From positions 124,001 through 188,000 of the forward strand of contig CACVBU010000588.1 of NCBI GenBank assembly GCA_902728285.1: a DNA stretch of 64,000 nt. Reading direction: 5' to 3'. Every line of letters starts with the position of its first letter. The stretch's first letter is position 1. The notes beneath the pieces were generated by a model, which saw only the letters and a program-made list of their open reading frames with translations, was not told the DNA's origin and searched no databases. A program made the position numbers and the translations under genes. Positions 5,311-42,542 of the stretch are shown in pieces. The DNA comes from Clytia hemisphaerica. Lineage: Eukaryota > Cnidaria > Hydrozoa > Leptothecata > Clytiidae.

Positions 5311-8300
5311 TCAAGATTCAATGCTGGTATCTTTGATAGTTCCGAGTTCCGCTTCCTTAGAATCAATAACATTATCTCTAATTTCACTGTCAGTAATTTT
5401 CATATTGCCAAGATCTTCATCAAGCTCAGATCTCAATGTTTCCGACTCATTAAAAGGAGCTTGAAGACCTACTTTAGTGATTTCCGAATCTGTAGTTTTC
5501 AAATTACTTATGTCTTGGTTAACGGTTTCAACTGAAGTAAGTGTTTTAGATTCTCCATTATCCACCGGAGTTTCGACAATTTCCTCTACCATAGATAAAT
5601 GATTCACAAAGTCCGCCTTCGAGTGCCGACCCCCGTCCGTTTGATGAGGATGTTTAATGACGTCGTCCATTGTTATGACAACGGCGTGAGAGTGTTTCCT
5701 TGGTGACGCATTAGAATCACTGTTAGCCTCTACTCCGGTCGAACTAGTAGCCTGCTGATGCCCGTCTTGCTGCAAAACGTCTGAAGGTAGTTCGTGTATT
5801 GGCGGAATGATCGCATAACTCAATTTCTTTTCACTCGTTTTCGTCGGCGACCCTACTTTATTTTTATCAAGAAACGGAGATATGTCAAGAACTTGGAAAT
5901 CGTCGTAGTATTTCATATTAACGCAACCAATATCTATACTCTTAGCACCGGGACTTAACGGTTTCTTTTGAGTCGGTGACCGGAGTTGTGAGTCAATTCC
6001 ATCTTCTCTTCCAATATCGAAATCAACGTCCAAGTCTAATAGTAAAGAATGCCGATACTTCCATAGTCCTGCTGTTGGTTGCGAACGCTGACGACTTAAA
6101 GCAGTTTTAATTTTCTCCTCCGATTGCCGTCTCAAAGTGGATCTACGCCTAGATAATTGGGCAGAGGGCGGCGAAGAGTCCGCCTCTGCTCCGACGCATT
6201 CACCCCTTTTATTTTCGTTTCGCTTACTGTGAATTTCTTCGCTAATAATTTCGAGGTTTTTTAAACTTTCCGAGTATTGGACTTTCGCTTTGGCGTACTT
6301 GCTTTCGAGGTCTTGGACATGTTCCTTCTGTTTCTGAAATCATTGGAAAAAATAATACGTGTTAAGTAATGAAAACAAACGTCAACGTGACCTTGCGAGT
6401 TAGGGTAATGACATTTGCTGAATAGTCCTGCATAATGAAGAAGAAATGATGAGAAAAATAAATCCAAAATTCAAGAAAGGAATAAAATGTAAAGAATGTA
6501 AAGATTTTCGATTAATAGCGATTAATTAACTAATTGAAAAAAAAACGAATTACAATTTTACCTCAAGGTATCCAAGATAGAACGCTCGTTGTTCAAAGTA
6601 TGGTCTAAAAGTTAAAGAATTTGTAATTAGAGAATTCTAAAAATTCGTTTCCGAAAGAAACTTGATTTAGTGACTCGATCAGAATGTTGCAGTATTTCAA
6701 TACGCTGCGCAAGGTGGGGTTCTATCATGAAAAAAGTTGGAAATGGTACTTGAAGATACTTTTTAAAAGAGCGTAAAAGAACATTGAAAATTAAAGAACG
6801 ACTCCCGCACCGCGCGAGCATAAATTCTTTCCTTAATTCTTCTGCGTTTGTCAGCATAATAGTGGCGCCCATAGATTTATAAAGCCTGAAGGGCTAGATG
6901 TCGTGCTTTAAGCCATCAAAGGCAAAAAAAACCCACGAAGCTGTAGAATTTCCTACCTAACTACGGCACACTTTTCAGCAAAAGTACGCCATCTAGACCT
7001 TCGGGCTTTATAAATCTATGGTGGCGTCTCTTTTCTATATCATAAAAACTTCAGTTAGAGATAAGTAAGATAATGATTACCTTGCTTTATTGACAGACTT
7101 TCGTAATTCTTTTTCGAGTTGCGATGCACGTTTTGCGAGTTCGAGGTAAGCTAACGTCGACTCGTGATGCAGTTGCTCGTTCTTGTATTTTTCTTTCTCT
7201 GCTTCCATGATCTGCAGCAAGAGAAAAATTTGGTTTAACTTCACTTAAAACAAACCCTGACGATGCAAGTTAACTACTGAAGCTTACGGCTCAACATTAT
7301 TGGGGAAAAATTAGCCCGCAAAACCAACGGCTATGTGGCTCGAGTCGGAATCAAAATTTAATCATTTGACATGAAGTAATATCAGAAAACATTCTCCGAC
7401 CATCTTTTAAATAAGGCTATTTCAATGATTAGTTTATTTGATTTTAAGCTCGCGAAATTAAACCTTACGAAAAGTAATTCTATTAAAGTAACAAAACTAG
7501 GGCTTCGTCCAACGCTGGATAAAGGGATTTATTTTACCCTTAAATTAGCATTGTTTAGCATCTCTTGCCAAGCAGCATCAAACATGCCAGGGTTGTTCAT
7601 CAACTTATCTTCTGCTATTTTGATAGTGTCTCGTGCCCCCTTGTGAAGTTGAAACGCTTTCTCGTACGTCACCGCTGCGTTCTGACATTCCGCTTGCGCC
7701 TGTTTTGGGGAAGGAAAGAAAGTAAATTAGAAAACGAAACTGAGACAAATCACTATTAAAAGAAAGAAACTACAAGCTCGAAGAAAATTCGTGAACGGGT
7801 TTTTCTACCGATTTAATTTAACAATCAGAAGAATTCATTAGTCTTAGTAGTAAAAAGTTGTTGATAAAGGTTTGTGAAAAAAGTACAAGTTATTAAAGTC
7901 ATAGAGGTTCAAACTGTGAATTGTTAACGAGTTTTTTTCAGAAGTAGGACATGGGCAAAAGTAAGTAAGTTTGTTTGTTTGCCACCGCAGTCGAGGGCGA
8001 CCGAGAGACGTCCTTTAGCTGTCTACCCTAAGGTAGGGGAGGGCACCAATCCAAAATTTTTCCACTTGCACTTTAATCATTACTTTAGTTACCCTGAGTA
8101 TCAGAGGTTAAGTTTTCAAAGAAAATAGTAACCTCTGAAGACAAATAATAGAAATTTTATCGCGCATGTGTCAATCTAATCACTGTAGAAAAAATCAAAG
8201 ATGAAGAGCAAATATTACCATATTAATGTCTAGCAGACTGTATCAGTATGCAGTTTACTATTTACGAATTCCCCAGAAACCTCCAAGTGTAGTTGAAATG

Positions 8301-11300
8301 AGTTTATTTCGAAAGAAATCTTTTACATGATCCCCAAATGTATAACAGTAATTACTAAACTTTTAATTATGGAAATTTCACTTTAATTGAATCGAAATAA
8401 TAGACAGACTTTATGTTATGATTCTCTATCACTGACTCTTTTTACAAAGCATTGATGACTTTTTGTAAGTTGTGTTTTCAACGACGGGAATAAAAATATC
8501 GACTATGACGCTCATCCAAGATCTTGGATGGTCGTCATGGTTACTTTTGTCTTCGCTGATTGCGCGATGAATAGAATCTCGATTCGTCGGCACAGCGTAA
8601 ATATATGATTTTGAGCTGTGCTTTTCACGGTATACTTTAGTTGCTGAGCATCAAGCAGAGAGGCATCAAGTACCATTTTGGGAATCTTTGGCATGACAGG
8701 GCTGGGGGGGGGGTGCCCACGATGCGCACGACGCGTTGCGCACCGTTTCCGAAAGTTCAACCTTCAAAATTCGGCGGACAAAAGATGAGCTCTAGCAAGC
8801 AGGGATTTGTTTTGCACTGCTTATCTGAATTCTCCCCTTTCACCTTCAAATGTGATCAGAGCAACGCTTTTTATCTCAAACAGAAGAAAATGGACTTTAC
8901 ACAACAAATTAGCCTAGGTTCTTCAAATTCTTCAATTTTACAAAAAAAGCTATTTTTCACACTCGTGAAAAGAACTGATCATTGTTTCAAATAACAAACC
9001 TTTTTTGATTGGCTCAACATCTCAAAATATGGTCTTGCTTTGTCGATATTATTCCCAATGCTTTTACCAAGTTGCTTGAGAGTTTTGGCGGCATCTGTTA
9101 AACGTTGACGGAACACTGCTCTCGCTTCCTATAACAATTTAATGTATATAGGGTTCATGATAATATAGCTTTCCAATAAGTAAGCGAACATGGATGTGGG
9201 AGGAGGAACGTAGCGTAAGTATGCGTTTAGTGAAAAGTAGAAACGAAGAACCTTTTGTGTTCAGGAATATGGGTGTTGTTTCGTAAAAAATACATTGATA
9301 CAGGTACAATAATTGTTAGTAAATTGTGATAAAAATTATTCTCATGGTAACATAATTTTAAATGGTGCATACAAAAATATAAAAAAATTCAATTTTCAAA
9401 TAATAAATCTTGTACGAATAATCGTCTTTCCATTCGTTTGATTGTTTGTTTGATAAAAACGATTTGGTCAACCAAAACTTCTGTCGTTGCGTCCTCGTCT
9501 AAAGAAAAATAGTTAAAATTCTGGTGAATGTCGTGTAAGAATGAAGGTCTGTCATTTTGAAAGCTTTTGTTTTAGAAAAAGGATATGGGAGAGTTGTGTG
9601 AGGTAAACTATCGTGTACTAAGTTTCGATAATATTAAAATTGGCATTTATCTCCCTCTATAACCGAACGCCCACCAACTATGGATATCCAGACAGTTTGT
9701 GGATAGGTGGCTTGCCTATCTATGAACTCAACTAAAATTGAACATGAAAAAAATAAGACTTTCGAATCTGGTAAATTTTATTTAATAGACCTTGTTTTGA
9801 CCACAAAAAGGTATCGAGAAATCTCTTACCTTTTCTTTGAGGAAAGAACAAGCCCAATTCTGTGTACAGTGTTTTCATCAACCTGTTCATTGTTTCGCCC
9901 TCTTCGTTACACAAAACTTTCGCTTGTGTGCTGCTGCTGCACGTACCAAGGATGCTCGTCAGTTGAATAAATCCATCATAAATTTGCAATTGTCGTTGAA
10001 GGAGAGCTTGCGAAACTTGTCTTGCTGTTTGGTCACCAAACTCCTTGCAATTTGTGATACAGGTGGACGCGCATGTCGTTTTGAACTCTAACATCTGGTG
10101 CTGTGACTTGGGACAACGTTGGTGGTCCTGCAAATTCTCCTGGGTATTGCAAATTTCCTTGAATGAGTCTGTTATCCTGTCTAATGTAGCGGTAATATTA
10201 ACATCGTCTAAAGTCAACAAGAGCATATTCGTAGTTAAACAGGACAAGAACCTCTTTTATTTTGTTCACAGAAGAAATGGAATCATACCACCCCATTTTT
10301 ACGGCTAGGGGAAGTAAAACTCACTGGTACCGCTGAATAGAATATCATAATGGTCAGACATCGTTCTATAAGACGACAATTTATTCGGCACAATTTCATT
10401 TACAGAAAACACGTCTCACCTTCAACCCTAACTCCTCTAAAACCTTGCATTGGGTTGTCCTACAAGGTTTAAGAGGGTTTGAGGGTGAACAAGAGAGAAA
10501 AGTAGATTAAATACCTCCGGATGAATCTTGGGAGCACAAACTGTCATTTTCTCCTTCCTCTGGATGAATTGGTGCTGACGAATCTTCATCTACACTAGAC
10601 AGGTCATCTTCGTGTTTTGTAGGGAGAATGCAAGATATCTCTTCAGCAGTATCCATTATTCTGTTCGTCCTTTCTGTGACAGAAGGGGTTTCTACGGCAC
10701 CTGATAACATTCTGCTGGATGGATTTTCTCCTCTAAAAGGTTTATCCTCTTCTGCAAAGGTATCTACGAAGGGTGTTTCCCTGATGATAGATGACGTATG
10801 AAAAGATGCTTCCCCAGGAGAAGATGTGCGTGACGATTCCCGGACATCTGTTTGGACGACAGACGTTTCTTCAACTGAAGACGAATCACTTTTGGGCGAC
10901 GGGTCCCGATATGACGCTTCCCCGATAGAAGACGTACTAGTACCAGAAACGGTTTCATCATTTTCTAGATAACATTTACCACAAAGATCATGGCCACATT
11001 TTGGACACGTGTACTTCTTCTCTCCACAGGGAATGCCAAGGAAACATTCATCGCATAAAAAACAGCTGACGTTGCGTGCTTTATTGATTTCTATCATATC
11101 TTTTTCAGCTTTATCAGAAGCCTCCAGTAGTTGGTTAGTGGCTTCTTCCAGGGCTTTTCGATTTTCTTGCAACCAAACATCAACCATTCCAGCTACTTCA
11201 TCGGATTTTGATCGAGAGTGTGAATGCATAGCCACGAACTTCTGAAGTTGATCTCTCTTCTCCATAGCTTTGTACACTTTATAGAATCGATCGCATCGGG

Positions 11301-14300
11301 CGTCATTTATACACAGATTCAAGTGCTCTTTATAAAGTTCAGTCTTTCTCAGATAAATCTCTTTATTGGACTTGAGAGATGGGGTGAGTTGGTGCAACTT
11401 GGAAACTTCATTAGTTACTTGATTCAATTTTCGCAATGCAATACCGTCCATCAAAATATAGTTCTCAGGATCGTTAATGATGGTCGTAACCAATTGTAAA
11501 CTTTGTTGCATCGTTTCAACAGGCGCCTGATCGAACAGATTCAAACTGCTGATGAAATAATGTTGCAACTGCTTCTGTTTTAAACGTTCTCTCAAGAAGA
11601 TGAACAACTCCAGAACACATTTAGAAATCATGTTCTCCACCCACCATTCAGGGACTTGTTGTTCTGACAACAAAAGCATGCACGTTTTAGCAACATAAGA
11701 GGGTAGGGAAGGCTCCATGGTTTTGAAATGCCGGTAAAACAACGACTTGAAGACGAAGTAACAGTAACTCATTTTCGGTGTTCGGTTTAAGGCGATTTTG
11801 ATTTCGGCTAACGAAAACGAGTATCTCCATTCCAGACGATGACTTTCATCTTGGTCGCTTTGCTTTGGGACTAAACAGCATCCTTTGTCGGCAATGCTTT
11901 TCACAACCTCTTCAGCAGGCCATGCTCTGTCTCTTGATAACCATTCGGTAGCAATATCAGGCCAGGCTGGATAATGAAAACAGGAGACATTATCAAATGA
12001 TACTATATTGGTGACATGGATAGCGTTGAGTTCTTTCAACCGGTTGATGTCATTGATGATACGTTGGCAGCTTTCCAAAAGTGAAGCAAAGTCTACATTT
12101 GCAAGCTGTTCTTTGAGCATTAATTCACTGGCAATGACAGGTATATCCTGGACAACATGATATTTTTTAAGCAAGGCACTGTAAAAGAAGCCGTCTTCTT
12201 TTTTGGCAAATTCGGTTAGTCCACCAATTGCGCCAGGCAGCCATGGTTTCATCAGCATGTCCGTGTTTTGGGACATTAACGAAGCTACTTCTTCGTTCTT
12301 CGTTTGGCAACCAGTCAGAAGCAATGCACGACGGACAAGATTCTTAAAATCGTTGATTTTGTCATATATGCTGTCTAATGCTTCTGTATAACGATCTATG
12401 GAGGGAGATATTTTTTCAAAGCTTTCTCTGATCTGATCTTGGGTGAACTCACTCGATTGACCCCCCGCTCGTTTCTCTTCGCAGGCAATCAACTGCTTCA
12501 TGGTAGCTTTCAATGTTAGCCGGGTCTCGTGAGACTGATCTAACTTTTGCAACAGGTCTTCGTAAAGAGTTGGCATTATTGCTAGAATGCTATCGAAAAA
12601 CTCGATAAATGAATCCAATTGTTGACCAGCGAAATACTCAACACTGAATTGAACTTCGGCGCTAGGCCCTGTGATCTTCCGTTCTACATTAACCAGGCTA
12701 GGCGGTATGCGGAAATCGATTTCGCAATCACGTGGTTGCAGGCGTTGGTGGATCGATCTCAGTTTTGAACCGTTGATAAACACGCCACCATTATCTCCAG
12801 TTTCACAAATTTCATCGATTTGGACTTCATCAGTTAACATCTTGATTGTGTTGTTTGATGGTGAGATAGTGACAAAGCCAGGGTTTTCAGCAATTTCCTA
12901 CATGTAAAGAAAAATATTTTTTAAACAGTTCATTAAAAGCACATCAATCCTCTGTGTTGACACTATCCAAATTTACATTTATAATATTTTATGATACATT
13001 TTATCTACAGTAATCAATAAGGATTATCTCTAAAGGAAAAATTCTAAGGATTTCACAAAATGTGGGAAAAAAAGACCGAAGATTAAACAGCAAAATAGCC
13101 TTTATATTTAAAAGAGCACTTTAGACCCTTGTATTTCGAAAAAAAACTTGTACCTGCACAGTGCAAGGCACCTCATTAAGGGACTCCTCATTGACGATTC
13201 CCATGACATACATGATATCTGCTTCTAGCTCCGCGCTTTCTCCCAAAGATGGTCGAAATAACCTCGACAACGAGGCCCCTTCGATTAAACTTCCTAAAAA
13301 TAAAGTATGGTAAAGTTTAAGGTTACAGTAGGCAAGATTAGGTCTTGTTTGCATTTTTTAATATTTTTAAATCTTAAAGATTGCCCCCTTTTAAGTCAAA
13401 TCGTAAAAAAAAAACACAAGATTATTTGTTAGCGATGTAACTCAGCAGTTAGGAGCTCCTTTAGGAGTGCTGTACCTAAGCTAAGTGCTACCCTACCGGA
13501 CGAGCGGTCCTTTGAGGTAAGTTTTTGTAAAAAAAATTTTGCACTGCAATAAAAAAGGGTCCGATTTAGAAAACTAAATTTTGTCCAAACGTACGGTAGT
13601 TTTGAAAGTGCCTATCCAACCCGATTACCCCCCCCTGTGTATGTATTATTCATATTTAAACTAGAAAAATGATAGGGAATCAAACTCAACCTTAATTTCT
13701 ACTAAAAACAACAAGAGGTATGTATCTCTACCAAAACAGAAAAAGTGGTAAAGTGAATCAAAATTTGTTGCGGATAAAAAATGTTTTGCCAGAAAAAGAA
13801 ACGACAAAGTTTTTATTTAAAAAGAAATAAGCATAAGCTTTTCGACATACAATCAAGTTCAAAAGGTCCGTAGACTTTTAGAAATGTGCTCCTTCCTTCA
13901 AAGTTGATGTAAATAAGGTCAGCTATTGCTACCAGATGCCAACATAACACTTTCAAAAGCATTGGGTGGGGTTAAGAGGGCACTTATACTGTGTTTTTAG
14001 TGATTTTCTGCTATTTAAAAAGTCTACAACCTTATCACCTTGATTGTAGTCATCTTCAGTGCATCATAATAACTCACCTGAGATGATGGTAGGTACAGCC
14101 TTGGTAAAGCTTGATATTCCAATAGCATGTTTCCAATTCTTTAAGAAAGAGGTGACGAAACCACCTTCGGCAAGCCCTATTGTCTCCAACGACAAATCGT
14201 AAAACGCATTTTGGAATATATCGGACATATTCGTGTCATATCGGTGCAGTGATTCTACACTGATACCGGCAAGCAGCTTTTCGTCCAATGCTTGGTAGTC

Positions 14301-17300
14301 TGGTGAAATCATTTCTTTTCTTTTCCACTAAGGGGAACTCGTCTGCTCTAACAATCTGACAAGTTTTCGAGTTTTCCACAGTGTATAAACTCACTGATTT
14401 ATAGCAAATAGAAAGGCACCCAAACAAGTTCAGTTTTTAATAAAATAAATCAACATTGGAATCGATAAAAACGAAAACAAATGGAATAAACACTCGTGAC
14501 CACTCATAAGAAGGATCATTTGATGAGCGCAAAATGTTGTCGATGCAATCAAAATTTATCTAAATACCACAAAACCCCCACTTTAGGAAAGAGTGCTTTG
14601 TCATCTATCATAACAACAACATGTTGCCATGGAGACAGTTCAATTGAACTTTTCTTAAAAAGGTCGGTTAAGATTATAACTTAAACGCTAAGCAGTCTTT
14701 CTTTATTTAGACCTTCTTTCTGTTGTTTGAAGGAAAATTTTCGTTTGCTGAGATGCCGTCAAACGTCCGAAGTTTTTCTTTTTTTGGACCACCCGGTACT
14801 TTTACAATGTTACTTGCGAGGCAAATGACATAAAACCTCCACATTTTGTAGAAAATAACATTTCTGACCCAAATAAACTGTTAGGTCTGCTTCAAAAAGA
14901 AAAGACATGCTATGAAGTTCAAGCTTGCTAAGGCTTCGACGATAGATTGACCGTCTAAAGTCAAAGTTCTCGTCAATTCAATGACTTCTTTCAAGCAAAG
15001 GTTTTTACTGCCCTTCTTTTGCCGATCTGATTCAATTAGATTCGACATGGCAATAAAACCGGCCAACTAAAGTAAGCCTAAGCGATAAAACTGAAAACAA
15101 TTCGCCGGCTTTGGCAGTGAACCTGAAATGATTTTTAATGGATCAACGCACGCTAAACGCATGGAACTCATCTCTCTAGGACGAATTTAGCCGACCGTTG
15201 CGTGTCAAACTTAATTAATTAAGATCGGCAAAATATCGACAATCGAAATATTTTGAAAAGGATTAAAAGAAGTCATTGCATTAGATCATTGCATTGACGA
15301 AAACTTTGACTTTAGACTTTGACTTTTGTCCACTTTAATTCAAAATTGGATTCGACAAGACACAAAAAGCCGCCCGACTAAACTAAGCTTTAGTTGCAAG
15401 AAATGGTTTCAGGAAATTGGGCGCTAGTGCAGTAATCTATAAGCACTCGGCTCAAAAGGGCTTTTCACTAAACCAGATCTTGAAATCAAACTTAAAAAGT
15501 AAAAATAGTTAAACCAAATGGAAGAAAGGTTTAAATGATCGAAACCCAGCAGACGGACAACGTTTTTACAACGTCCAAATAACATTCTGACGTTCGAGTG
15601 ACGTTGTTTTGACGTTAAAACAACGTTCCGTGCGTCTGATGGGGCAGCGCATAGTGATGATAATCTTCCCGGACACAGAAATGAATGATAAGCGCTTTAA
15701 AAGAGCAATAAAGATATATTAATAGCGTGCTTAAAGTTGAAAAGAGAAAGGACGAAGGATATGTTATACTTATATAGTCGTTTCTATTGCTGAGAGCAAC
15801 AAGGAAAGAACGTTTCGATAATCCTTCTTTATTCCTTTGCTTTGCTTTACTCAACACATTGTCGAATTCTTTTGGTGCTTACAATGGTTTCACTTACCAT
15901 TTTTATTATAGAAGGTTTTAAGCAACCTTAATCTAAGATGAAACTAAAAAACACGATCATTTCATTCTACAATCGGTGACGAAATACTTGGCACAAAAAG
16001 GAAATCCACCGGGGTGTTTTTTTGAAACCACAATCGATTTGCAAGTGCTCTAAAGTAGGTTCGAAGGGTAGAGATTTAACTCTGAGTTTTAACGCTAGAC
16101 TTCAAGAATGGTCCAGTAGGGCTTGAAATATAGCCTAGAAACCAATAAATCCCTCCCAGATCGAAATAATCGTTGAAATCAAGTTGAAGGCCCGAAATTG
16201 ACATTCTAGCTCGAACTTCAATTTTCGAAAAATGGTAAATTTGCCAAAAGTGCCAATATGTTATGGCACTGATTGTAGAGTACGGCTATTAAATATATAG
16301 ATTTAAGAATGTTCAGAATGAAATTACTTCATCCTATTAGTGTTGGGGTCGACCGGTCCCTTGAAATACTGGGTCAAAGGGGCGAAGGTCATATCTCAAG
16401 AACGATTAATGGTAGTGAGCTGAAACTTTATATGCTGTTTCCTCATCCTAAATTGAAACATTTGAAGCAATAAAAACGGGGTTAACAACAAACCTGGTTT
16501 TCATATGTGCGACAAAAATACACCCACCAGGATCAAAAGAATGCATGCTTCGCACCTGGTTCTAGTGTTCCCTTCCACTTCACTTTTTTCATCCCAAAAA
16601 TTAATTCTTAAATAAATTTTAGCTGATAACGTAAACTTATTCCAATGAGTATAGTAAAAGTGTATCACCCTACGTTGACAACAAAAATGACCAAAATGGT
16701 TTTCTTTGTTCTCTAAACTGCTAATTAATCAATACTGGCAAATAAGAAAAAATTCAACTGAAAATGTTATGCTCCTCGACTCCACGACTCTAAAATAGCC
16801 CGCGAAAGCAATTCAACAGATAGACCTCCTCCGGTCACCCCTATCTTCATCCTCAGTCTCAAATCAGATTCTCTGCTTTCCTCTACAGCATCTAAAGTAA
16901 GATCATCCTCTACTTCGACCGACCGACCACGATAGGACATTGAAATCAGCAGATATGGTGCACCGATACTTTTTGTCTACCGGAAAACAAGCCAAATCGC
17001 AAAACAGTAATTCTAGGGGTAAACTAAGAAATTTCTCTCATTTGAAAAATCGAAACGGCGTGAATTTTGTAAATTAAATGAATGCGTGATTTTATATATT
17101 ATTGGGGGAGGCAGGGGGAGGGTGTTATCATTCCATCTCTCAAACCGGATGAATATGTTTTCATTTTGTACAATTTAAAGTTCGAGATTGAACGAGTTCT
17201 CCCCTAATTCCAATTTTCAAATTTGGAACAAGAGCCGCAAGGATGCGGTTAAATATTTCCTCTGCAATGGCCAAACTGGCATAAAACATGAATGAATACA

Positions 17301-25501: not shown

Positions 25502-26617
25502 TTATTTATACATTTGCATCAAACATTTATGCATAACTTCCATATACCTAGAAAAGATTGCATCGTATTGTTTAACAAACTGTCTATAATTATATTCGGT
25601 AGTGTTAGTGTTAAAATCAGACCAAGATTCCAACAACATTGTCAAGAAGAGTTCCATTTCTTTACGAGACCAATCCAACTGTTTCATAAGCTCGATCAGC
25701 TTCTCAACACAATCAATAAAGAAATCACGGAGATCTTTGGAGTGTGTCAAAGAACCACCGAGCTGGAAAAGATTTCTTGATATGGAACGAAAATTGGAAT
25801 CAACACTTTTCTTGAAATGCAGTGTTGTCACTTTCTTCTCTAAGCGTGTTGCCATGTACCCCTTATGGATATCTTGGAATTCACGTTCAGTAATTGTATT
25901 TCGTAAATCTCGAAGATCCTGAACAAAGTTACGGTCAATTTCGTCTGGGTCAGCATTTTTATACTGTGGCGTTCCCTCTCCGCCACTCGTCCAACGCCCC
26001 AAAATATGATCAGCACAAATCATCAGATCATCAAAATTCAAATAATTTAACTTCTTTTTGGTAATTTCAAATCGTTCCAAAAACACAAAAACCAGAGGGT
26101 AATACTTCTCTACAAGAGCTTCAGAAAAATGGAATTGATTCTTCAAAACATTGAGAAGGCTGTCCTCTACATCTTCTAGCGTTTTAAGAATGTTTTTGAC
26201 ATTATCAAACTGTCGCCGGCAGCTATGCAAAGCAACTCCAGTCTTCTCGGAGACATCTTCCATATCTTTACGTAGCTTAGCACTCATTTTCTTTCCAAGG
26301 ATCTCCCTCATAACATCTTTATTGAAAGCATAATAATGCTCCAGGAGGCTTTCTTTCTGTTCTGGAGAAATTGATGACGTAATTGGAGAATTCAGCAAAG
26401 GAGGGGATTGTAAAAAACGTTCCAAATAGTTAAATAAGGTGTATTGTTCAGCAACTTCAAGCTGCAAGAGGTTGAATGGAATATCTGTGACAGATGTTGG
26501 TACAAGACTGGCAAATCTTTTGGATGCTTCTTGTCTGGTGTGTCCATTGGTCCACATTGAAAATAAATCCATATCAATGGTCATCGGATCCGAGAAACAT
26601 ATTGAAAAATCATCCAT
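25502..26617 (-). CDS. FIBP: Acidic FGF intracellular-binding protein (FIBP), single exon
   Basis: A 371-residue protein (human FIBP is about 360) in one uninterrupted frame. Family blocks in order: LERFLQSPP near the N-terminus, HYYAFNKDVMREILGKKMS, DVSEKTGVALHSCRRQFDN, FEITKKKLNYLNFDD, FVQDLRDLRN, LTHSKDLRDFFIDCVEKLIE and a C-terminal RYMEVMHKCLMQMYK. The ATG at 26617 (MDDFSICFS) fits the family start; the frame upstream lacks an ATG. FIBP binds acidic fibroblast growth factor inside cells and has been linked to mitogenic signalling. Vertebrate FIBP is split by many introns, so the intronless form here suggests intron loss or a retrocopy. No poly(A) remnant follows the stop. An AATAAA overlaps the stop region, which may or may not be used. 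Confidence 0.93.
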   Translation of the reverse strand: MDDFSICFSDPMTIDMDLFSMWTNGHTRQEASKRFASLVPTSVTDIPFNLLQLEVAEQYTLFNYLERFLQSPPLLNSPITSSISPEQKESLLEHYYAFNKDVMREILGKKMSAKLRKDMEDVSEKTGVALHSCRRQFDNVKNILKTLEDVEDSLLNVLKNQFHFSEALVEKYYPLVFVFLERFEITKKKLNYLNFDDLMICADHILGRWTSGGEGTPQYKNADPDEIDRNFVQDLRDLRNTITEREFQDIHKGYMATRLEKKVTTLHFKKSVDSNFRSISRNLFQLGGSLTHSKDLRDFFIDCVEKLIELMKQLDWSRKEMELFLTMLLESWSDFNTNTTEYNYRQFVKQYDAIFSRYMEVMHKCLMQMYK

Positions 26618-28364
26618 CTCTTTTATATAATTTTTTTTTTGCAAATTTTTCACCGTCGCTGAAATTTAACATGGGTAAAAAGTCAAAAAAGCAGGATTCA
26701 TTTAAAATAGACCTCGTTTAATAACGCAAATTTAAAATGTAAAATTGACAATGAACCTAGTGTTGAAACCTATCAAAGGTAAAACCTGTTTAAATATCCC
26801 TTTCTTTTAAGAAAGATGAATGATTTGATGATGAGAAACAACAAGAAAACCTGACATTAGACATTTTTACTGTCGGCTACCTAATAAGTGTCTCCTCACT
26901 AATTAATTTTTCGAAAATTTTCCACCTGGGACACTCTTACTCCAACTCCCCCCCCCCACTCATTAATTTTTTGAAAGTTCTCTTCTTCATCAAACCCTCT
27001 TTTTGAATTAAGTTTTTTGATAAATCTTTGGATAAATTTTCGCAGTTGAACTCATCCATCCATATCATGTTTTTCTTTTTACTGCCAAATTATACGTATT
27101 ATTTGGTGCCAGTTAACATTTTGAAAGTAGTTCAAAGTCCCCAATTTCATGTGTTTTTGCCTGAAAATAGACAAAAATTGTGGTGGTCGAATAGCTGTGG
27201 TGAGATTGCATTGAAAATATGCAAAACCTATGCAAAAAGAAAGTATCAATATAAAACTTAAATGCATATTGGCATTATGTTAAATTGTTCACCGGTTCAC
27301 TATTTCGAAGAGGGCTACAGGGCTTTTTGCGCAATGCAATTGGTTCTTTTTGCATGACGACGAGCCTACACTGCCCAGAGTTGCCCATCGTTAGGAAAAT
27401 TCATTGTGACGTCACTTTTTCAAAGGAAAATGAACAATGTGCTGATATGATTTCTCTCATTTTTTATTTCTGCCGTCAGAAATTATAACAATTTTTGATC
27501 TCTTTTCTCTTGTTTTTTTTCCGGGCTGTACTGAAAATATTGCCCTTGGTCAATGCAACAACCTCGCAAGCTCGTCCAGGCAAAATTCCAAGCACTCTGT
27601 TCACTGGCCGTTTTTTGACTTAGAAATTGAGTTTTGGCTTTCGAAAGTAACCAAAATTTTTTATGAAACCCCTCAAGGCCACTTATGAAGGGTTTATTTT
27701 CAAGGATTAAGCATTGCATTTGCGAAAATAGAAAGAAATGTATTGAATTGAATTTATTTTCAATCATCATAGAAAGAATACATTTTGATTTTGCTCACTA
27801 TCTTCATCTTTTTGACAGTTTTGTACACAAAATACAAATTCTCTAAATATTGAGTTTTGAAACTCAACTCAAAATTGAGTATTTTGGCCATATAACGGCC
27901 ACAAAAAAGTGCTTGGAATTTTCACTGTCGTCGTTACTTGACCTCGGGCAATATTTCTCAGTACAGCCCTCACTAACCGGTCATTATTGTATTTGTGTAA
28001 TCTTGTAGAAGAAAGATTAAATTTGCTTCTATTGAAAACTAAAAATTATCATATCCGCTCATCTCTTAGAATAAGCACTTCAAAAAACCATAACATTAGA
28101 CATAAACTCAAGCTGAAAAATCACCAATGAAGGTATAAAAATAATCCATATTCTGCTGATGGTAAATCATTCTCCTGGGAATAGAACGGCCAAATGATCA
28201 AATCAAAATTGATCTGTACCCCCTGATAAACAGCGGCTTTTACTAACGTGTTGGGCTTGACCTTGTAAATGAAAATGGGGTTTTAATATTTTCTTGCATG
28301 GGAAAGAATGTGTGACGTCATAATTACTGCTTTTAGTTTTTGTGTTTTGAAAGTTTGATGTGTG
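26618..28364. other. Intergenic: repeat fragments, no gene
   Basis: AT-rich. 26875-26975 resembles the interior of the 17595-17886 element. Inverted segments around 27525-27610 and 27905-27970 share CTTGGAATTTT/GGGCTGTACTGA words and probably mark a diverged foldback. No coding exon is supported. Confidence 0.5.
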
Positions 28365-32825: not shown

Positions 32826-35490
32826 ATGGTGTTGAAGAAAAGTAAATCAGAAGCAATCAACTCTGGAAATACCATCCGTAAAGGTAGGTCGATATTTTAT
32901 ATCTTCTTTGAATGTGACTTATATCTACTGGGAAAGAATTGATAGCTAAATCACCAGTCAAAACCTAATTTGAATTGAAGCGTTTCAACCTCTGTAAATA
33001 TTACATTTGCCTTTCGTCTATTTTACAGGTCGAAGTAAGACTCATATTCGAGCATTTGAAATCCAAGCATCAAAGCACAATTTCTTAAAGTATGCAGATA
33101 AACATGAAAAAGAATTATACCGAATTTTATCACAGCCTCAAATCGAGTTCTCTTTGAACAAATAAAACCGATGGTCTCTGTACGAGAAATTAGAGCAAAT
33201 CGAGGAGCTTCAGAAAACCTACGGAGAAGAAAAAGAAAAACAGAAAAGCCGTCGACAACTGAAAAAGGAAAACCGTAAAAACAAGAGGTCAAAGAAACGC
33301 AGAAATGAAGATGAATCGGAGCAAGCTGAAATCGTTTATACGAAGTCTGATGAACAGAATGTTACCGTTTGCTCTGAAAATAAAGTCAATTTCAAGTGAG
33401 TATCTTTATTGTGACAACTTGTCATGCGCTTATCTCAGTCCAGTGGCCAAATATAAGATTCCCAATAGATACATTGAGTCCGGGGGGGATTGAGTCAACC
33501 AAGTCAAATAATGTGGATCAATGACCAGGTGTCAGATATCCGGGAACAGATCTGTTGATAACAGATCACATAAAAACAAAGTCTAATTCTATATTGTTAA
33601 AATTATAGATCAGTGCACCGAACGCTAACCAAACTTCATGATGCATACCACACAAAACACAGGTCACAAAAAGTCAACGTCAGAAAACCAAAGATTTATT
33701 ACGATGACGATTTGGCGACGGATTATCTGTCGTACGACTATGACGAGGATGACGACTATGACGACTATGACGAGGATGACGGCGAATTCTATTGGGAACA
33801 AAATGAAGATGGAGACGTGATTGGACACCAAACTTCACTTTCATTTTCTGATTATTTCAACACGTCCCATGAAACCAAAAAAGCGGTCTTCGTCGAAGAA
33901 TCAATCGGAAAATCTGTTCATGGAGAAATCAAACCAGCTATGCAACTACCATACACTTCTTCAGGACTGGTTGGCAATACACGAAAAGTTGAATTACCAA
34001 TTCAACTTCAAGTCAAATCCTCAAGTATCGCACCTGAAATACTCCGACAAAAACATGGTAAGAAGTATCACGAAAGTGCTTCAATCCCAAGGAAATTCCT
34101 TATCATTGAAAATACATCTTATAGGAAAGCAAAAGTTGTAATAGTAACTGTCCAATCAGAATCTAAAGGCGTGGCATCAGTTTTGATCGATAAGCAGCAA
34201 AGTCACGGAAATAAGGATCTCAATATTCCCTACAATGATGGCTGCATAAACTTTGATGAGTTAATTCAACCAGTCTTTGACTTGCAGAGCAACTTTACCA
34301 ACAGCTCACACAGCATTGTTTCTCCTTATACTGTACTGAAGCCGTTCACCCTTCATTGTGTCTTCACTGAACAAATCAGGAATCCTACAATGTTAGATAC
34401 CTGTTTCGTAGACGACAATCTTTGTCAGAACTGCTTCCAAACGAAAGATTCATTTACTACACTTATGGGTTGTGGGCATACCTTTTGTGATGACTGTTGG
34501 CAAGATTTCATTTCGATGATGGTGTCAGCTCAGAGAGTCAACATCCCTTGCATGCAATATAAATGCAATACAAGAATCGATCCTGTAACCGTCGTAAGCT
34601 TCCTGAAGAACGACAAATCCTGGCTATCGTTTAAAAGTGGTTCCCTGAACTCGATAACATCATGCCCAAAAAAACACTGCGTTGGCGTAACCTCTGATAA
34701 AGTAAATCCGCCAAGAACCAGTGAAATTACGGATAGATTTGATGCAAAGCAGCCAGAAATGTTTTGTGAAGTTTGCGGAAGCAAGTTTTGTGTGTATTGC
34801 CGAGAAGGACACTGGCCTTTGACGTGCGAAATGCATCAAGCATACCAAGAATACAAATCTGGCGAGGAGCAACCTTCGTATGAAGATTTATTGAGAGATT
34901 CGCAATATTTGAAATTACATTTGAGAAGCTGTCCAAACTGCCACGTCGTCATCGAGAAAAATGGAGGGTGTAACCATATGTATTGCACTCAATGCTACAG
35001 ACCATTTAATTGGGACAAACCACAAACCAAAGAGTTTGGTACTTGGCGATTCTTCCAAACAAAGCATAATGATCGATTACGTAATGCTTTACTGGTGGGT
35101 ACCGTGATCAAGAATGACGCAATGGAGAAGCTAAAACAACATGGATACACAAACGAAGTCAAAACTAAGTTGCATACAGAGCTGTACGAGGCTATCAAGG
35201 CTTTGAGCAAGATTGTAGAATCAGCATATGTTGTCAGCGGTTTGAGCGACTCGGTTTACCAGCGACGTCGGTATCTCAATCTAGCCGATCGTTTGAAATG
35301 GTGGGTCAGCAAAGGACTTGATTTACTTTCCAGAAAAAAGAATGAATACGATGCTCAAGATATCAAATATGCAACAAGAAAAATGAAAGAACTGATTGAC
35401 CAAGTTGTCAAAGGTGATTTTATAATCCAAGAATGTCCACTACCAGCAGGTGATCATGCTCGACTCTGGAAAAACATCTTGATGAATTGA
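32826..35490 (+). CDS. RBR-type E3 ubiquitin ligase (ariadne-like), possibly interrupted
   Basis: Exons 32826-32883, 33029-33395 and 33609-35490 join in phase. Exon 3 carries an acidic run (DYDEDDDYDDYDEDD), then RING1 (CQNC...CGHTFCDDC...C...C), IBR (CPKKHC...CEVC...CVYC...H...C) and RING2 (CPNCHVVIEKNGGCNHMYC). The catalytic RING2 cysteine that takes ubiquitin in a thioester is the Cys codon at 34969-34971. After it the usual FCWxC is FNWDK, so the second zinc site of RING2 looks lost. A helical ariadne-like C-terminus follows. Exon 2 has an in-frame TAA at 33163-33165. Without it the product would be 768 residues. A GT-AG intron 33035-33193 (donor GTAAGA, weak acceptor TTAG) would remove the stop and keep frame, giving 715 residues. 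So either a small extra intron, a nonsense allele, or a sequence error. Substrate unknown. Confidence 0.8.
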
Positions 35491-36059: not shown

Positions 36060-39000
36060 TTAGTAAAATAAATTTCTACAGTAAGTCATGATCACCATGA
36101 CAACCGCTATAAACAAACAACTTCCCGAATATCCGAGAATCAAGTAGAAAAATAGATTACCATCTGTATTCGTATACTCAAAGAAACAAGTCTTTTCTTT
36201 AGCGTTCGAACGATAACATTTACTCCTCGGTAAGCGATAATGCATTGATTTCTCACAGATTCGATTTTCAAAAATCGGCACCGGTTCATTAGATACTATT
36301 TTGGCGGGAAATGTTTCGTCTGCCGTACATATGTTCTTAGTAACAATGAAAATAAGGTTTGTTTCTAAGATACGTTTAACGTGGAAGTACATTTTACAGT
36401 TTGCTGACGACTCTAATATGCCATAGGTATCAATACTAAGTTTATTGAGAGTGTAAATAGGGCGTTCTTTAATGCAACTGATGTTACGCTTCGAAGCGGT
36501 TGCTGCGCTGACGTTTAATTCATTAGGTGGAAATAAAAGGTTTGTGAATAGTAGATACAAAATTGCTGATAATTGACTCAAAAAGGATATCACGTAGTTG
36601 AAAGCTTGCGAATACATAGATTTTATAAGTTCACTGCTAGATGATTTGGACTGGTCGCCCTCTTGGTCACTTGAACACTCAGCTTGTGTATCTTTGTAAA
36701 CAGTCTTATTGAATATCTCTAACTCAGTTAGTTCTTGCAATAAATTCCCGTTTACGAATCCGACGAAATAGCCCGTTAGAAAGTGGTTTTGGTTGCTTAT
36801 GACTACGTAACCAAACATATCCACCATCAAGCACTGGTAATTCTCAGGGTCACCACAATCGAAAGAAAATGTGCAATTTGTGTTCTCCTGAATGGGGTCA
36901 CAATCTGATTTGAAGTTTAGTTTCATATAATCAATAAGTGTTAGAGAATTGATTGATAGACCTATAACAGACATCAAACTATGTTTTTCTTTAGAATATA
37001 TTCCTCTGGTAATGGCAACAAGATTTGTGTTTACGTTTTTTGTCTTTTGACGCCATGGTGGGCGCCCCGTTTTGGTCTCCACAGTAAAGACAAGGTTTCG
37101 TTGATGATTTAACCGCATCGCTGCTGTGTTTGTGAATCGGATGTCTTCGTATAGGTCTCGTAGAATCAGACGACTGATGTTGAAATCGGTTGACCAATGT
37201 ATGGTAAAGCCAGCTGTGGTCATCACAAATAAATCAGTCACATTGTGACTATCCAGAGATTCTAAGGACCAAAATTGATCAGTAAAGTTACCAATAGTTG
37301 AGCCTGATTGCAATAAATCCATAACACGGTTATAATCGCATTCCGAGTCTGCAATATCATGTAGGTTGCTCAGATAACTGTATAAATCATCTGCTGTAAG
37401 ATAATAATGTGTAGAAGCTGGTTGGTTTTTCATATTTTCATGGTCAACAGTACAAAAAGGCCAACTAGCAATTTGATGACGCCGGCTCTCCACCTTTGCT
37501 GTTTTCAACCAATTGATACCAGACTTGATAACAGAGTCGGGAAGAAGTTTATGATCGACTTTTGTTTTGATCAAGTTTTCATCGGGAATGCTGACGCCTG
37601 CGAAAAATGGCGTGTCCGGTAATGGCCGGTAACAATAAGTATTGTTCAATCGGACAAATTGCGTGTTATCCGATAACGGAAACAGCCAATCAGCTTCTGC
37701 CCTTATGCATCCGATTTCCCCATCTATCATACGGCGTTCCAGCATTTCCCCGATTTCGGGTTTGACAGTATGTTCGACTTCTGATAGATACACGGTAGCT
37801 GGATCGGTAAGGTAACCAAATTGATCTTTGAACTTTGGATGCATTAAGAACAATCCGTTGTTGTTGATAACAAAGGCGTGACCAAACACACCCATTTCCT
37901 GAAATGTAAAAGGTATGTAAATATAAAGGATAATGTTTTTATAAAAGAAAACAAAATATCGCAAACAGAGTTTGGACCACTGGCCGGGGAGGTACCAGAA
38001 ATAATGGTCTCCTCAAAAAAAATAAAACTTGGTGACTTATCAAATTCCCTCCCTATCTGAATTCAACTTTTATCAAGTGTAAGGGGAAGGGGAATCTTTA
38101 GGATTTGCATTTGTTTAGAAGGAACAATTTTCTGACTACATAAGAAAGGTTTAGAGATTTATCCCATTCCATGAATGAAAGCAGTGAGCACTTTTTATAT
38201 ACAGGGGTTAAAACTGTATTCCCCGGTTTTATCGTACACAGATGGGATTTACTAGTTATCCAATGGGAGGGGGGGGGGGGGTCAAAATATCAAAGCATGA
38301 CTTATTGACAAACCATCCCAAATTGTCTCTAACCTGTATAGGATAATGTTGTTCCAATAAGGAGATGACAATATCAATCCCTGCAACTCCAATCAATTCT
38401 GTGTCTGATTTGCCGTCGTCGATATCGAATGATGTTGATTCGTTATTTAAGTTAGCAAAAACACCTGCAAAAAAATATTGTTTACTTTTTAGCAAATAGC
38501 TTATAGACTTCGCCAGTGTAAGGGACACTATCCTTGTTTTCTTATAGGAAACACACAACAATATAGATAAGATTAAATAGAAGTAGGTCAGAAGAAAAGC
38601 CTTGAATGTATACCCTAGCTGTATGCTTTTTTTACCGAAGCGAGAATGTTTTCTCAAAACTTCCACTCAGCTTCGGCTACAATTTTGAGATACAGCATAA
38701 CCTCAGCCTCAGCTCCGTTACATTGGTTTTCAAACCAAAAGGCTAGAGACGCATCTAGCCCAAGCAAGAAAAAGCGAACTCTTAAAATTTGCGTTACATT
38801 TCGGACGAGAGATTAATCTAGCATTTTCTTTGTTTTCGGACAGTTGGAGGATATGAATGTAAACATACCAGTAGAGATGGTGGTCATCATTCCCAGCCCT
38901 GATCCATCCAAATATAAAGGTGTGAAAGTGACGTAATTGGTGCCGCTTTCGCCGATCGGTTTACTCAACACTTTCTGATATTTCAATACGCCGTCCAAAA

Positions 39001-41827
39001 CATTTCCTGTCGAAGAGTAAGAAAATCACGAACTTTTTAGCCAGGGGATGGGTTTTGTACAAGTAAAACTTACAAAATATCTGATATCAAAATTTAAAGC
39101 CCTGTCCTTCTTATTATAGCGGGGTAAACTCCAGCTTATTTGGTTATTTTCAATAGGGAATGCGACGTCATCTAATAAATATCAAAAATAACTTTTTCTT
39201 ATGAAAAAAGCGTAAGAACGATGCAAATGACGTACGTACGCTTTACTAACACATATCAAGAATAGGCTGGTTCTTATTGGAAAAGCATGCGGCCTTACCA
39301 ACAGTTTGTATTCGGTAATAATCTCCACCATTCGCGCATGCCACATCCATCAACTCCATATCCGTTGTGAATCCTACTATAAAGGAGAATATCACTACGT
39401 TTTTATCTCCATTATATCGTGCTAACACTTCTTCCGTTCGATCGTCATAAGTTACACCGTCTGAAACAATCATCATAACTTTCGTGCAGTTCGACGTTGC
39501 TAGGGGTTCCGTTGCACCTCGATTGAGTATCTCAAAGGCGGTTTGTAAGGCGTTTGGGAAATCAGCCATGCCAGTGGGTTGGTCTAGTTGATCTACGATA
39601 TCTTTGAAAGCTTGTTTATTGGACGTTGTAGCTTCGGAGAGGTTTTGTAAACACGGGATGAGATAATCGACGTCCGAATTGAACGAAATAACATTAAAAT
39701 AATCATCTTGCTGTAAGGTATTGATAAGTGAAGAAACAACAAGTTTTGCTATAGTAAGATGTGTTCCCGTCATGGAGCCTGACATATCCGTAGCTATAAC
39801 GACGTCCTTAGGAGACATAATAGCTTGATTGTACCATATGCGACGTCGTGGATCGTACATATCAACCATGTCACTTTCGTAGCTGAGTGAAGGGAGATTT
39901 TGAAATAAAGAGTTCTGCAATGCTGGACAAAAGGTTTGTAGACTTCTGCAATATTTGCAAAATACTTCAATATCGATCAAAAACAAGTTCCCAAGAGGCT
40001 CTGGGTGCTTTCCAAACCCATCCAAAGTCTTTCAAAGTCACCCACTGCAGTCTAACCGCAAGGGCAAACCACAAGGGCTTGATTAACTGGCTTACACCAG
40101 TATCAAAACGCTGATTTTTTGCTTGTGGTTCCCTCAAAAGCAATTCAAAAGCAATGCAACGACTTCAAAAGTGTTTTTCTTAACTTCCATCCCCTTGCAG
40201 ACACATTGAAGAGTCATTTTGCTCTATTTCTCATCATTTTTTACTGAAATTCCATTTGTCTACAACCTTTTGTCCGGCATTGTGCAGAGAGACATTTTAA
40301 CTTGTATCTTTTCCATATGACAGCTATAACAGTAATAATCTAGGTTTGCGAGAAGACGGGTATGTCATAGACAAGGCTCGAAAAACCGACCCGGAAAGAG
40401 ACTTACTTTATAGAGCCGTTATACCCATTCTGCCTGAGTACCTCCAGGTAGCCAGAGGAAACAGTAAAAACTCACTTAATCCCTGGGAATGTCTTCGATG
40501 CACCATTTTCGCTTGAAAAATATTGCCATAAAAGCGTTGGTTTGTTCTTGAAATTCTCCAAAAAGACTGGGTCCAAGTTTTGAAGCCACGTGAAATCGTT
40601 CAGAACCTTTTTGTCGTATTTGAAAATCTCCGTAGGTACCTGTAAGAAATGGAACAAAAGGTGAAGAAAAAATACTGAAACGTTCCATACGGTCTTAAAC
40701 ACGTAACCAGTTAATTTTCAATCCATGAAAAAGTCATCTAAAGGTTTTCAAATTACTATCATTATCTGGACATATTGCAACCAATGACACACCCCTGTGT
40801 TACAGAACTGATGGGACCACCTCAAAACTGGAAAAATTTGGTCAAAAGTTATTTGAAATAATGCTGTTAAATCTCATCCCTATTGGGTAACACCAAAACA
40901 ACTTCATCCCCATCGTAAATAGAACGGGAAAAAATGTCATCCGAAACGATTTCCAATGAGTTGAAAACAATTGATTTTATATCTCCAATGGAACTTTGAT
41001 TGGTAAACTTTTGTCCGAAATGAACGAGACAGGGGCGTAATGATAATTGACCAACATGTAATGAAGTTAAATAAGTTCGCGAAATTTTAATTTATATGAG
41101 AAAGGTTGTAAGGGTGTAGGCGAGTTAAGACGATCCACTCTTTGCCATATCTATTCTATAATTGAGAATTTAAGTAGGCAGAAAGCTGGCTGTCTAAAGT
41201 CAACGCATTGACCTCTTTTGTCGTCAGTGCAATGACTTCTTTAAATCTTTTTGCAACACAGATTATAACTGCCAACCTGCTGTCCACTTTTCCTCTACAG
41301 GGCAGAAAGTGGACTGTCTAAAGTAGAGCATATAAAATGGTGAGCCTTGAGTACTATAAAGAATTTGAATGTGGAAAAAGTAAAACAATAATGCATACCT
41401 GTGCGAAGCTCTGATTGAGGTTTACTTTCAAATCTTTGGAGAATGTTGGTTCAATACGAGCACTGTTATTTTGTTTGTCATTGAAGTAATTAAAAGGTTG
41501 GATGTTATAATCATACACGTGACTCTCTATGGATGATTTCACTTTATATTTGATCTTGTTCAAATCGTCCAGATAAGAGAGCAACAAATCTCGAATCTTG
41601 TTTCCAAAAGTTTTGGTAATTTCATCGACGTTGATTTCGTATTCCTGTAAAATACCTTCCTGAAGTTGTTTGTGGATAGTGGATTTGAGCAGTTGGTGTT
41701 TGGTTGTGCTTTCGAATAGATTGTCAGCATAGTTGAAGAAGCCTTGGTAAATCGATTGGTCATCATTTGTCAATGTCCAATGCGTTTTGGTGAGTAGTAG
41801 TAACAAAACAAACAAACTTTTTTCCAT
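36060..41827 (-). CDS. CACNA2D: Voltage-gated calcium channel alpha-2/delta subunit, 6 exons
   Basis: Exons 41399-41827, 40476-40639, 39299-39882, 38869-39006, 38334-38464 and 36060-37898 join in phase to 1094 residues, the usual family length. A signal peptide opens the protein (MEKSLFVLLLLLTKT). A VWA N-terminal region contains PTEIFKYDKK and LLWQYF. The VWA domain follows YDPRRRIWYNQAI and has an intact MIDAS, Asp230-x-Ser232-x-Ser234 in TDMSGSMTG. Cache-type sequence (GVFGHAFVINNNGLFLMHP, TVYLSEVEH) comes next. The delta part has METNLIFIV-like and Cys-rich blocks and ends in a hydrophobic segment, a membrane anchor or GPI signal. Family members raise surface expression of Cav1/Cav2 channels. 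YLSEVEH is reminiscent of alpha-2/delta-3 and -4, but subtype is not assigned. A TTTACAG acceptor at about 41879 shows at least one upstream 5' exon. Confidence 0.93.
38263..38280. repeat. Poly-G tract
   Basis: A run of G broken once (GGGAGGG then about 12 G) in an alpha-2/delta intron. Length in the assembly may be unreliable. Confidence 0.8.
40303..40450 (+). other. Orphan coding-like block on the strand opposite alpha-2/delta
   Basis: A plus-strand frame reads SFPYDSYNSNNLGLREDG, then a charged stretch including KARKTDPERDLLYRAVIPIL and PEYLQ. It runs to a CAG|GTAGCC that could be a donor. The block is GC-richer than the surrounding intron and has coding-like codon use. I do not recognise the protein. 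It sits in the intron between exons at 40476-40639 and 39299-39882. It may be a gene fragment, a mobile-element relic or chance. Confidence 0.3.
41188..41330. repeat. Fragment related to the 14930-15336 element
   Basis: Shares GTCTAAAGTCAACGCATTG and GCAATGACTTCTTT with that element, and ends with the complementary orientation (AAAGTGGACTGTCTAAAGT as direct repeat). It lies in an alpha-2/delta intron. Confidence 0.45.
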
Positions 41828-42542
41828 GTTTTTTGACAGTGACTTTATCCGTTGACCTTCATGCAATTCAATTGACTGTAAATTCAACACAAAGAATGCA
41901 ATAAGTGGAAAAAGTCTGCTAATTCTGAACGTTACAAACCTTCAAGCTAAAGTAGAAGGATAAAATCCCATAAAATAGTCATCAAGTATTTCTGCAAAGT
42001 GTGAAATTTCCTTAAGTTACAGATCTTAGTTAAAAAAGCTTGATTTAAGTCTCACTAAGAGTAAGCCTCTATATGCATCGAAAAAGCAAGAACATTTCAA
42101 CGCTCGAAATGCGTTAACATCTAAAAACAATCTAAGACCATCGCGAAGGCTTTTTCAAAGTTTAAGAATTCTCAATGAAAGACGAGTTCTTCATGAAGAG
42201 TAAACACTGAACTTTCAAGAAAGTGAATAAAACCTCTGGCTGAAAAAAAGACAGCAAGAGACCTATTAAGATTACGACAGGTTGCCGTCTTAATAAAGAG
42301 ACGTGTAAAATTATTTTCATATCAGATACTCTATAGGGATAATTAAAAAGAGTTTTTGAAAACAGCATGTCATAGATGAACATGGAATATTATTTAGAGA
42401 TAAAATCTGTTTTGAAAAATACAAAAGATACACACATAAGAAACTCTCAACGAAAACAAAGCAAAAGAAAATTAAAGCTTTTTCATTCAAACCATCCTGC
42501 GATATCTTGCTTGAGATCTATATCAAAGTTTTCAAACTGTCG

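Follow-up and report, generated by a model that had tools for sequence, protein, structure and literature searches.

A duplicated Mab-21/cGAS-fold gene with an unusual core insertion in Clytia hemisphaerica

Can a nucleotidyltransferase of the cGAS fold remain an enzyme when some 200 residues are placed between its second and third catalytic acids? This question is raised by a gene on the minus strand of contig CACVBU010000588.1 of the hydrozoan Clytia hemisphaerica (assembly GCA_902728285.1), which lies at 10507..14312 of a stretch of 64,000 nucleotides (positions 124,001 to 188,000 of the contig; hereafter the window). Its product is a 921-residue protein of the Mab-21/cGAS fold. The gene was compared with its source genome (417 Mb, 951 contigs), Pfam, the PDB and the literature; papers are cited here from excerpts of their text. 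We concluded that it is a real, intact and duplicated gene of the cGAS-like receptor (cGLR) superfamily with an unusual core insertion.

The gene and its diverged paralog

Three minus-strand exons (Table 1) are joined at GT/AG borders in intron phases 1 and 0, a splicing pattern that is read from sequence signals and from a paralog. The exon borders, the frame and the residues named in an earlier sequence-only reading of this DNA were all found at their positions. No phage record matched the gene. Pfam recognized the Mab-21 family (PF03281; E 7e-10, 39.7 bits against a curated cut-off of 24.1), a check that the same reading had proposed, and also recognized Mab-21_C (PF20266; E 8e-12, 45.6 bits, cut-off 24.1). 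The first half of the Mab-21 domain was missed by Pfam and was matched by a profile made from this genome's own paralogs; this match was broken at the insertion in the exons of both the window gene and its paralog. In Pfam and in the profile comparison with PDB chains, homology spans both the nucleotidyltransferase core and the C-terminal helical lobe. These matches place the protein in the animal cGLR (Mab-21) superfamily.

The diverged paralog, on another contig (locus L030; hereafter C545, after its contig), has the same three exons, the same intron phases and the same acids. Identity between the two proteins is 38% in exon 1, 66% in the GS/ExD block, 37% in residues 111-210, 23% in the insertion, 50% in both the third-acid block and the C-lobe, 17% in the linker, 38% in the Cys-rich module and 21% in the tail. 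The GS/ExD block is the best-conserved region of the pair (21 of 32 residues identical at 79-110), and the strongest constraint acts on the catalytic block. Two genome searches gave at least 57 and at least 67 matches, with the query itself counted in each. Among the matches listed, the two genes are reciprocal best matches, and each gene's only match covering the whole insertion and the finger is the other. In a FastTree analysis of 37 domains the pair has a support of 0.977, and a third gene, L031 (contig C421:715565), joins it at 0.887 as its nearest relative.

Active site and core insertion

The site residues were counted in an alignment of 27 domains (A4), which holds 25 other paralogs besides the window gene and C545, both of which were trimmed of their insertion. 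Since the rows were picked for their profile match and for spanning the sites, this set does not sample broken genes. The column of Gly79 is G in 27/27, and that of Ser80 is S in 26 and G in 1. At the first acid (Glu102) there are 19 D and 8 E, and the second (Asp104) and third (Asp427) acids are D in 27/27. The donor-nucleotide residues of human cGAS, E383, K414, Y436 and K439 (PMC4897736), fall, as we read the profile-cGAS alignment, on Glu490, Lys509, Tyr526 and Lys529, and these columns are E in 27/27, K in 25 and R in 2, Y in 27/27 and K in 27/27, respectively. A second count took in 36 aligned stretches, with the pair and L031 excluded. Of these, 10 that are gapped at the acid columns were set aside, and all 26 with letters at the acid-2 and acid-3 columns keep the three acids. 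Regular expressions for the acids recovered only 7 genes over 58 loci and were dropped.

The 27-domain profile matched cGAS-like receptor 1 (8gjy; E 6e-49), MB21D2 (7lt1; 2e-32) and cGAS (1e-22) in the PDB. The [DE]xD and third-Asp columns coincide with those of all three. The alignments to MB21D2 and cGAS also take in the G[S/G] motif, which lies ahead of the start of the 8gjy alignment. The three-acid site, which had been said to look intact from the sequence, is thus backed by the alignment to solved structures and by its conservation in the diverged paralog. The active site is probably that of a competent nucleotidyltransferase, and catalysis, taken by itself, seems rather likely.

Of the published cGLR patterns, the G[S/G] motif required in the methods of PMC9980059 is present. 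The distance from the GS motif to the first acid is 21 residues (81-101), one above the limit of 8-20 of that paper. Its next pattern, [DE]h[DE]h followed by 50-90 residues to the third acid, finds the acids in place at a spacing of 322 residues. Since 26/26 other domains measured in the genome exceed 90 residues (92-146), the 50-90 limit alone does not discriminate here.

The spacing of 322 residues agrees with the earlier estimate of about 320, and the insertion occupies the loop that joins the Gly-Pro strand (GPSAEVQF, residues 202-209) to the third-acid strand (SFDNVS). From Gly202 to Asp427 there are 225 residues, and 230 in C545. The same loop measures 16-58 residues in 28 other domains: 17-44 in the 18 that read GPA or GPS, and 16-58 in the other 10, for which the profile column gave 7-28 and the larger values were obtained after the Pro motif was picked by eye. 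It is therefore a naturally variable site, and in the window protein it has slightly less than four times the length of the longest among the 28. L031 was left out of this comparison because its insertion site is ambiguous. All spacings were taken from the profile alignment; the MAFFT alignments A1 and A2, in which the Gly-Pro strand of the paralogs was misplaced because of the insertion, were not used for this. The sequence-only reading had put the insertion at 215 residues. Inserted coding sequence in the catalytic core is indeed found; its size is better given as an excess of about 170-210 residues over the usual loop of 16-58.

The insertion is coding: its GC content is exon-like (0.419 for residues 211-420, 0.421 for the rest of the exon, 0.339 and 0.266 for the introns), its 210 codons are free of stops (chance 2e-7 at the intron stop rate), and of the six reading frames the true one has the best score. 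A GTRAG donor is missing around the 5' edge, although nine plain GT sites lie there, and AG dinucleotides are also present. The amphipathic-helix moment, compared with shuffled sequences, is high in the insertions of the window protein (z 3.6) and C545 (z 3.5); the linker (z 1.5), the beta core (1.1) and the tail (1.3) gave lower values. The insertion probably forms a helical lobe of about 200 residues and appears to be fast-evolving. The matching loop of cGAS is a short hairpin turn a few residues ahead of the third acid; judged from this position, the lobe would presumably sit near the mouth of the active site. Comparison of the insertion with the PDB gave no convincing relative (best E 0.37), and Pfam gave no significant family (best PMC2NT, E 0.11). 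A few weak genome matches start within it (at query positions 233, with stops, 247, 256 and 260), and none crosses the whole insertion.

L031 resembles the pair in its long core insertion and its retained acids. It differs in that its insertion (about residues 160-470 of the frame) holds tandem TDTVPQETPAKPD-like repeats and is placed by the profile before the Gly-Pro strand, not after it, although the site is ambiguous. The idea that this insertion occupies the same site as those of the pair was dropped, since the profile puts that of L031 one strand earlier. In sequence, the L031 insertion is at best weakly like that of C545 (41/1000 shuffles reach the score) and unlike that of the window gene (609/1000).

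Length variation in this superfamily has been described before. A 2007 report already described long indels for Mab-21 domains and noted conserved indels among sequences of Nematostella (PMC1784063), and the ligand surfaces of cGLRs show notable insertions and deletions (PMC8410604). In the literature searched, including excerpts of PMC9980059, PMC8410604, PMC4897736, PMC1784063, PMC12424679 and PMC10732462, no description was found of an insertion this large between acids 2 and 3, the supplementary domain-architecture tables lying outside this scope. Similarly, the titles and abstract openings returned by a literature search for a Mab-21 protein or cGLR with an insertion or a zinc finger held no matching architecture.

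C-terminal regions, charge and related genes

The Cys-rich module and the acidic tail that had been read behind the C-lobe are both present in the sequence (Table 1). The module is similar to that of C545 above shuffled sequences (0/1000 reach the score), while the tail is not conserved there (337/1000). The assignment of the module to the ZZ family did not hold: PF00569 gave E 2.9 and 8.2 bits against a cut-off of 21.4 with the finger alone, and no match with the whole protein. A ZZ finger ends in a pair of His ligands. Within residues 722-790 of the window protein the only His is His761, inside the Cys block; C545 has His740 and His783, which form no pair after the block. The best Pfam match of the finger was FYVE (E 0.056), far under its cut-off, and no clear second copy was found elsewhere in the genome (next best E 0.12).

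The isoelectric point (pI) of the window protein is 4.8-4.9 in the core and 4.9 at full length. The values for C545 are 6.1-6.5 and 5.5, and across the 27 aligned domains the pI spans 4.6-8.9. Nucleic-acid-sensing cGLRs have a pI above 8.5, and acidic cGLRs that are auto-active independently of a ligand, and may sense something else, have also been described (PMC9980059). The window protein resembles the latter, not the nucleic-acid sensors. Since its pI is far below the yardstick of 8.5, a nucleic-acid ligand is unlikely for it; for C545 this is less clear.

The genome holds at least 75 matches to Mab-21 exons and two to STING_LBD (E 5.6e-45 and 3.8e-39), and the Mab-21 and STING-domain profiles had no match in 14 control genomes. 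The STING ligand-domain matches lie at C129:1499522-1509725, about 9 kb apart, each within a 252-residue open frame. Searches for the GFP and mollusc haemocyanin families gave no match, and their controls matched nowhere as well.

A separate observation concerns four other Mab-21 paralogs, L032, L033, L042 and L023 (contigs C924 and C827), in which the stop is immediately preceded by a CaaX box (CVLI, CILL, CTII and CAIL). They form one clade (support 0.995) with intact acids, and such an end is limited to these 4 of the 123 distinct frames of at least 100 residues in the fetched loci. This suggests a prenylated, membrane-anchored cGLR-like group, reminiscent of prenylated OAS1. No paper on CaaX-bearing cGLRs was found among 8 of the 1,360 papers that matched one literature search.

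Around the gene, the window holds the neighbours listed in Table 1. A candidate extra downstream exon, a 174-residue open frame at 9732-10256 (minus strand), was rejected; Pfam did not match it, and the paralog locus that was fetched holds nothing comparable.

Table 1. Features of the Mab-21/cGAS-fold gene and its neighbours in the window
Feature	Coordinates	Strand	Basis or content
Exon 1	14078..14312	-	residues 1-78 and first base of codon 79; end G followed by GTGAG, phase 1; matching exon and phase in C545
Exon 2	13154..13293	-	residues 79-125; carries Gly79-Ser80 motif, Glu102, Asp104
Glu102-Ala103-Asp104, putative catalytic acids 1 and 2	13217..13225	-	alignment columns; opposite EFD of cGAS
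Exon 3	10507..12897	-	residues 126-921 and stop
Insertion, about residues 215-420, following GPSAEVQF strand	12013..12630	-	profile split, spacing, coding tests; helix moment
Second half of Mab-21 nucleotidyltransferase domain, residues 424-491	11800..12003	-	PF03281 profile positions 122-192
Asp427, putative catalytic acid 3	11992..11994	-	opposite third-acid Asp of MB21D2, cGAS, 8gjy
Mab-21_C helical lobe, residues 504-594	11491..11763	-	PF20266; holds Lys509, Tyr526, Lys529; Glu490 just upstream in protein
Linker, residues 606-733, probably helical	11074..11457	-	weak paralog similarity, 70/1000 shuffles reach score; helix z 1.5
Cys-rich module, residues 737-767	10972..11064	-	8 Cys, 7 in common with C545; no significant Pfam family
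Ser/Glu-rich acidic tail, residues 771-921	10510..10962	-	pI 4.24 for residues 776-921
SH3BP5-like gene	5311-6339		Pfam
FIBP gene	25502-26665		Pfam
IBR protein gene	33601-35490		Pfam
VGCC_alpha2 and VWA exons, calcium channel alpha2-delta like	36060-41941		Pfam; frame 41354-41941 without Pfam match
Ankyrin and CAP-Gly protein gene	50539-52515		Pfam

Possible function and its alternatives

Among known proteins, the nearest solved chain is the cGLR 8gjy, with which the window protein shares the fold by profile, the [DE]hD motif, the third Asp and an aligned helical C-lobe. It differs in the 322-residue spacing of acids 2 and 3, the linker, the Cys-rich module, the tail and the acidic core. Human MB21D2 is also close: its third acid lies opposite Asp427, and it lacks a Zn-ribbon, has a neutral surface and carries an additional helix at the C-terminus (PMC8410604). 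In its aligned sequence the stretch from the Gly-Pro strand to the third acid contains no large insertion, and the match excludes the Cys-rich module. The DANGER/Mab-21 developmental proteins, including MAB21L1, have the same domain (PMC4897736, PMC1784063); MAB21L1 has Gln at the third acid, where the window protein has Asp (PMC4897736).

We propose, at a probability of about 0.5, that the window protein is a plausible cGLR-superfamily enzyme gated through its accessory lobe by a ligand other than nucleic acid, with a nucleotide messenger and a STING readout. Two metal ions would be bound by Glu102, Asp104 and Asp427, and the donor nucleoside triphosphate by Glu490, Lys509, Tyr526 and Lys529. 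The inserted lobe, the C-terminal linker and the Cys-rich module might keep the enzyme off or position a partner. A ligand, probably not nucleic acid, would then turn the enzyme on to yield a nucleotide second messenger, which could be read by one of the two STING proteins of the genome. Catalysis, gating by the lobe, the type of ligand, the product and an immune role are what we infer here.

Several facts weigh against this proposal. The insertions of the window protein and C545 are not significantly alike (score 40 against 34.7 +- 5.6 for shuffles, 172/1000 of which reach it), and a shared functional lobe is therefore suggested by site, length and periodicity alone. The residue ahead of Gly79-Ser80 is Ser, where the published h[QT]GS motif (PMC9980059) has Gln or Thr; the window gene reads I-S-G-S and C545 reads I-T-G-S. 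Because the C545 core is less acidic, the pair does not have one clear charge signature. Finally, enzymatic activity of MB21D2 was not detected when a panel of possible ligands was tried, despite its putative triad, although its authors judge the protein competent from its structure (PMC8410604).

The result on MB21D2 is also among the facts that favour a pseudo-enzyme or scaffold, in which the nucleotidyltransferase fold would be kept to bind a nucleoside triphosphate or a protein partner, and the insertion, the linker and the Cys-rich module would be protein-interaction parts. Such a role has been proposed for some Mab-21 proteins. MAB21L1 was crystallised in an inactive conformation, with no activity seen by the authors (PMC4897736), and the big accessory regions and the acidic surface of the window protein are compatible with this role. 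However, the three acids and the four donor-site residues are retained in both the window gene and its diverged paralog, the GS/ExD block is the best-conserved part of the protein, and the Gln of MAB21L1 is not found at the third acid here. We regard the scaffold as a possible but tentative explanation.

It is quite unlikely that the protein is a conventional nucleic-acid-sensing cGLR with an unimportant loop expansion. Its superfamily membership, the STING-domain genes in the genome and the variable nature of the loop would fit this explanation. Nevertheless, the core pI of 4.9 stands against the values above 8.5 of nucleic-acid-sensing cGLRs, and the length of the insertion is held in two very diverged genes. 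An artefact of the gene model, in which an intron left unspliced would pass for the insertion or exons of different genes would have been joined, is highly improbable and largely refuted: although splicing is known here from signals and the paralog alone, the insertion has coding composition, runs through 210 codons without a stop and lacks a GTRAG donor close to its 5' edge, and the paralog has the same exon order and phases and an open insertion.

Our proposal of a gated enzyme can be carried further, to a cGLR lineage with a fast-evolving sensor lobe in its core beside the third metal-binding acid, where ligand recognition would act directly on the active site. This extension is doubtful. 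If it were true, such enzymes, with 322 residues between the acids and 921 in total, would fail the acid-spacing and length filters of published cGLR surveys. The diversity of cGLRs was catalogued with an acid spacing of 50-90 residues (PMC9980059); taken literally, this would miss the pair and 26/26 other domains measured in this genome. A survey in Diptera left out any protein longer than 700 residues (PMC8410604). Activity of the pair would mean that the core of such an enzyme can take up a whole domain without loss of the active site, and would make the pair a direct test case for gating of these enzymes by a cue that is not nucleic acid.

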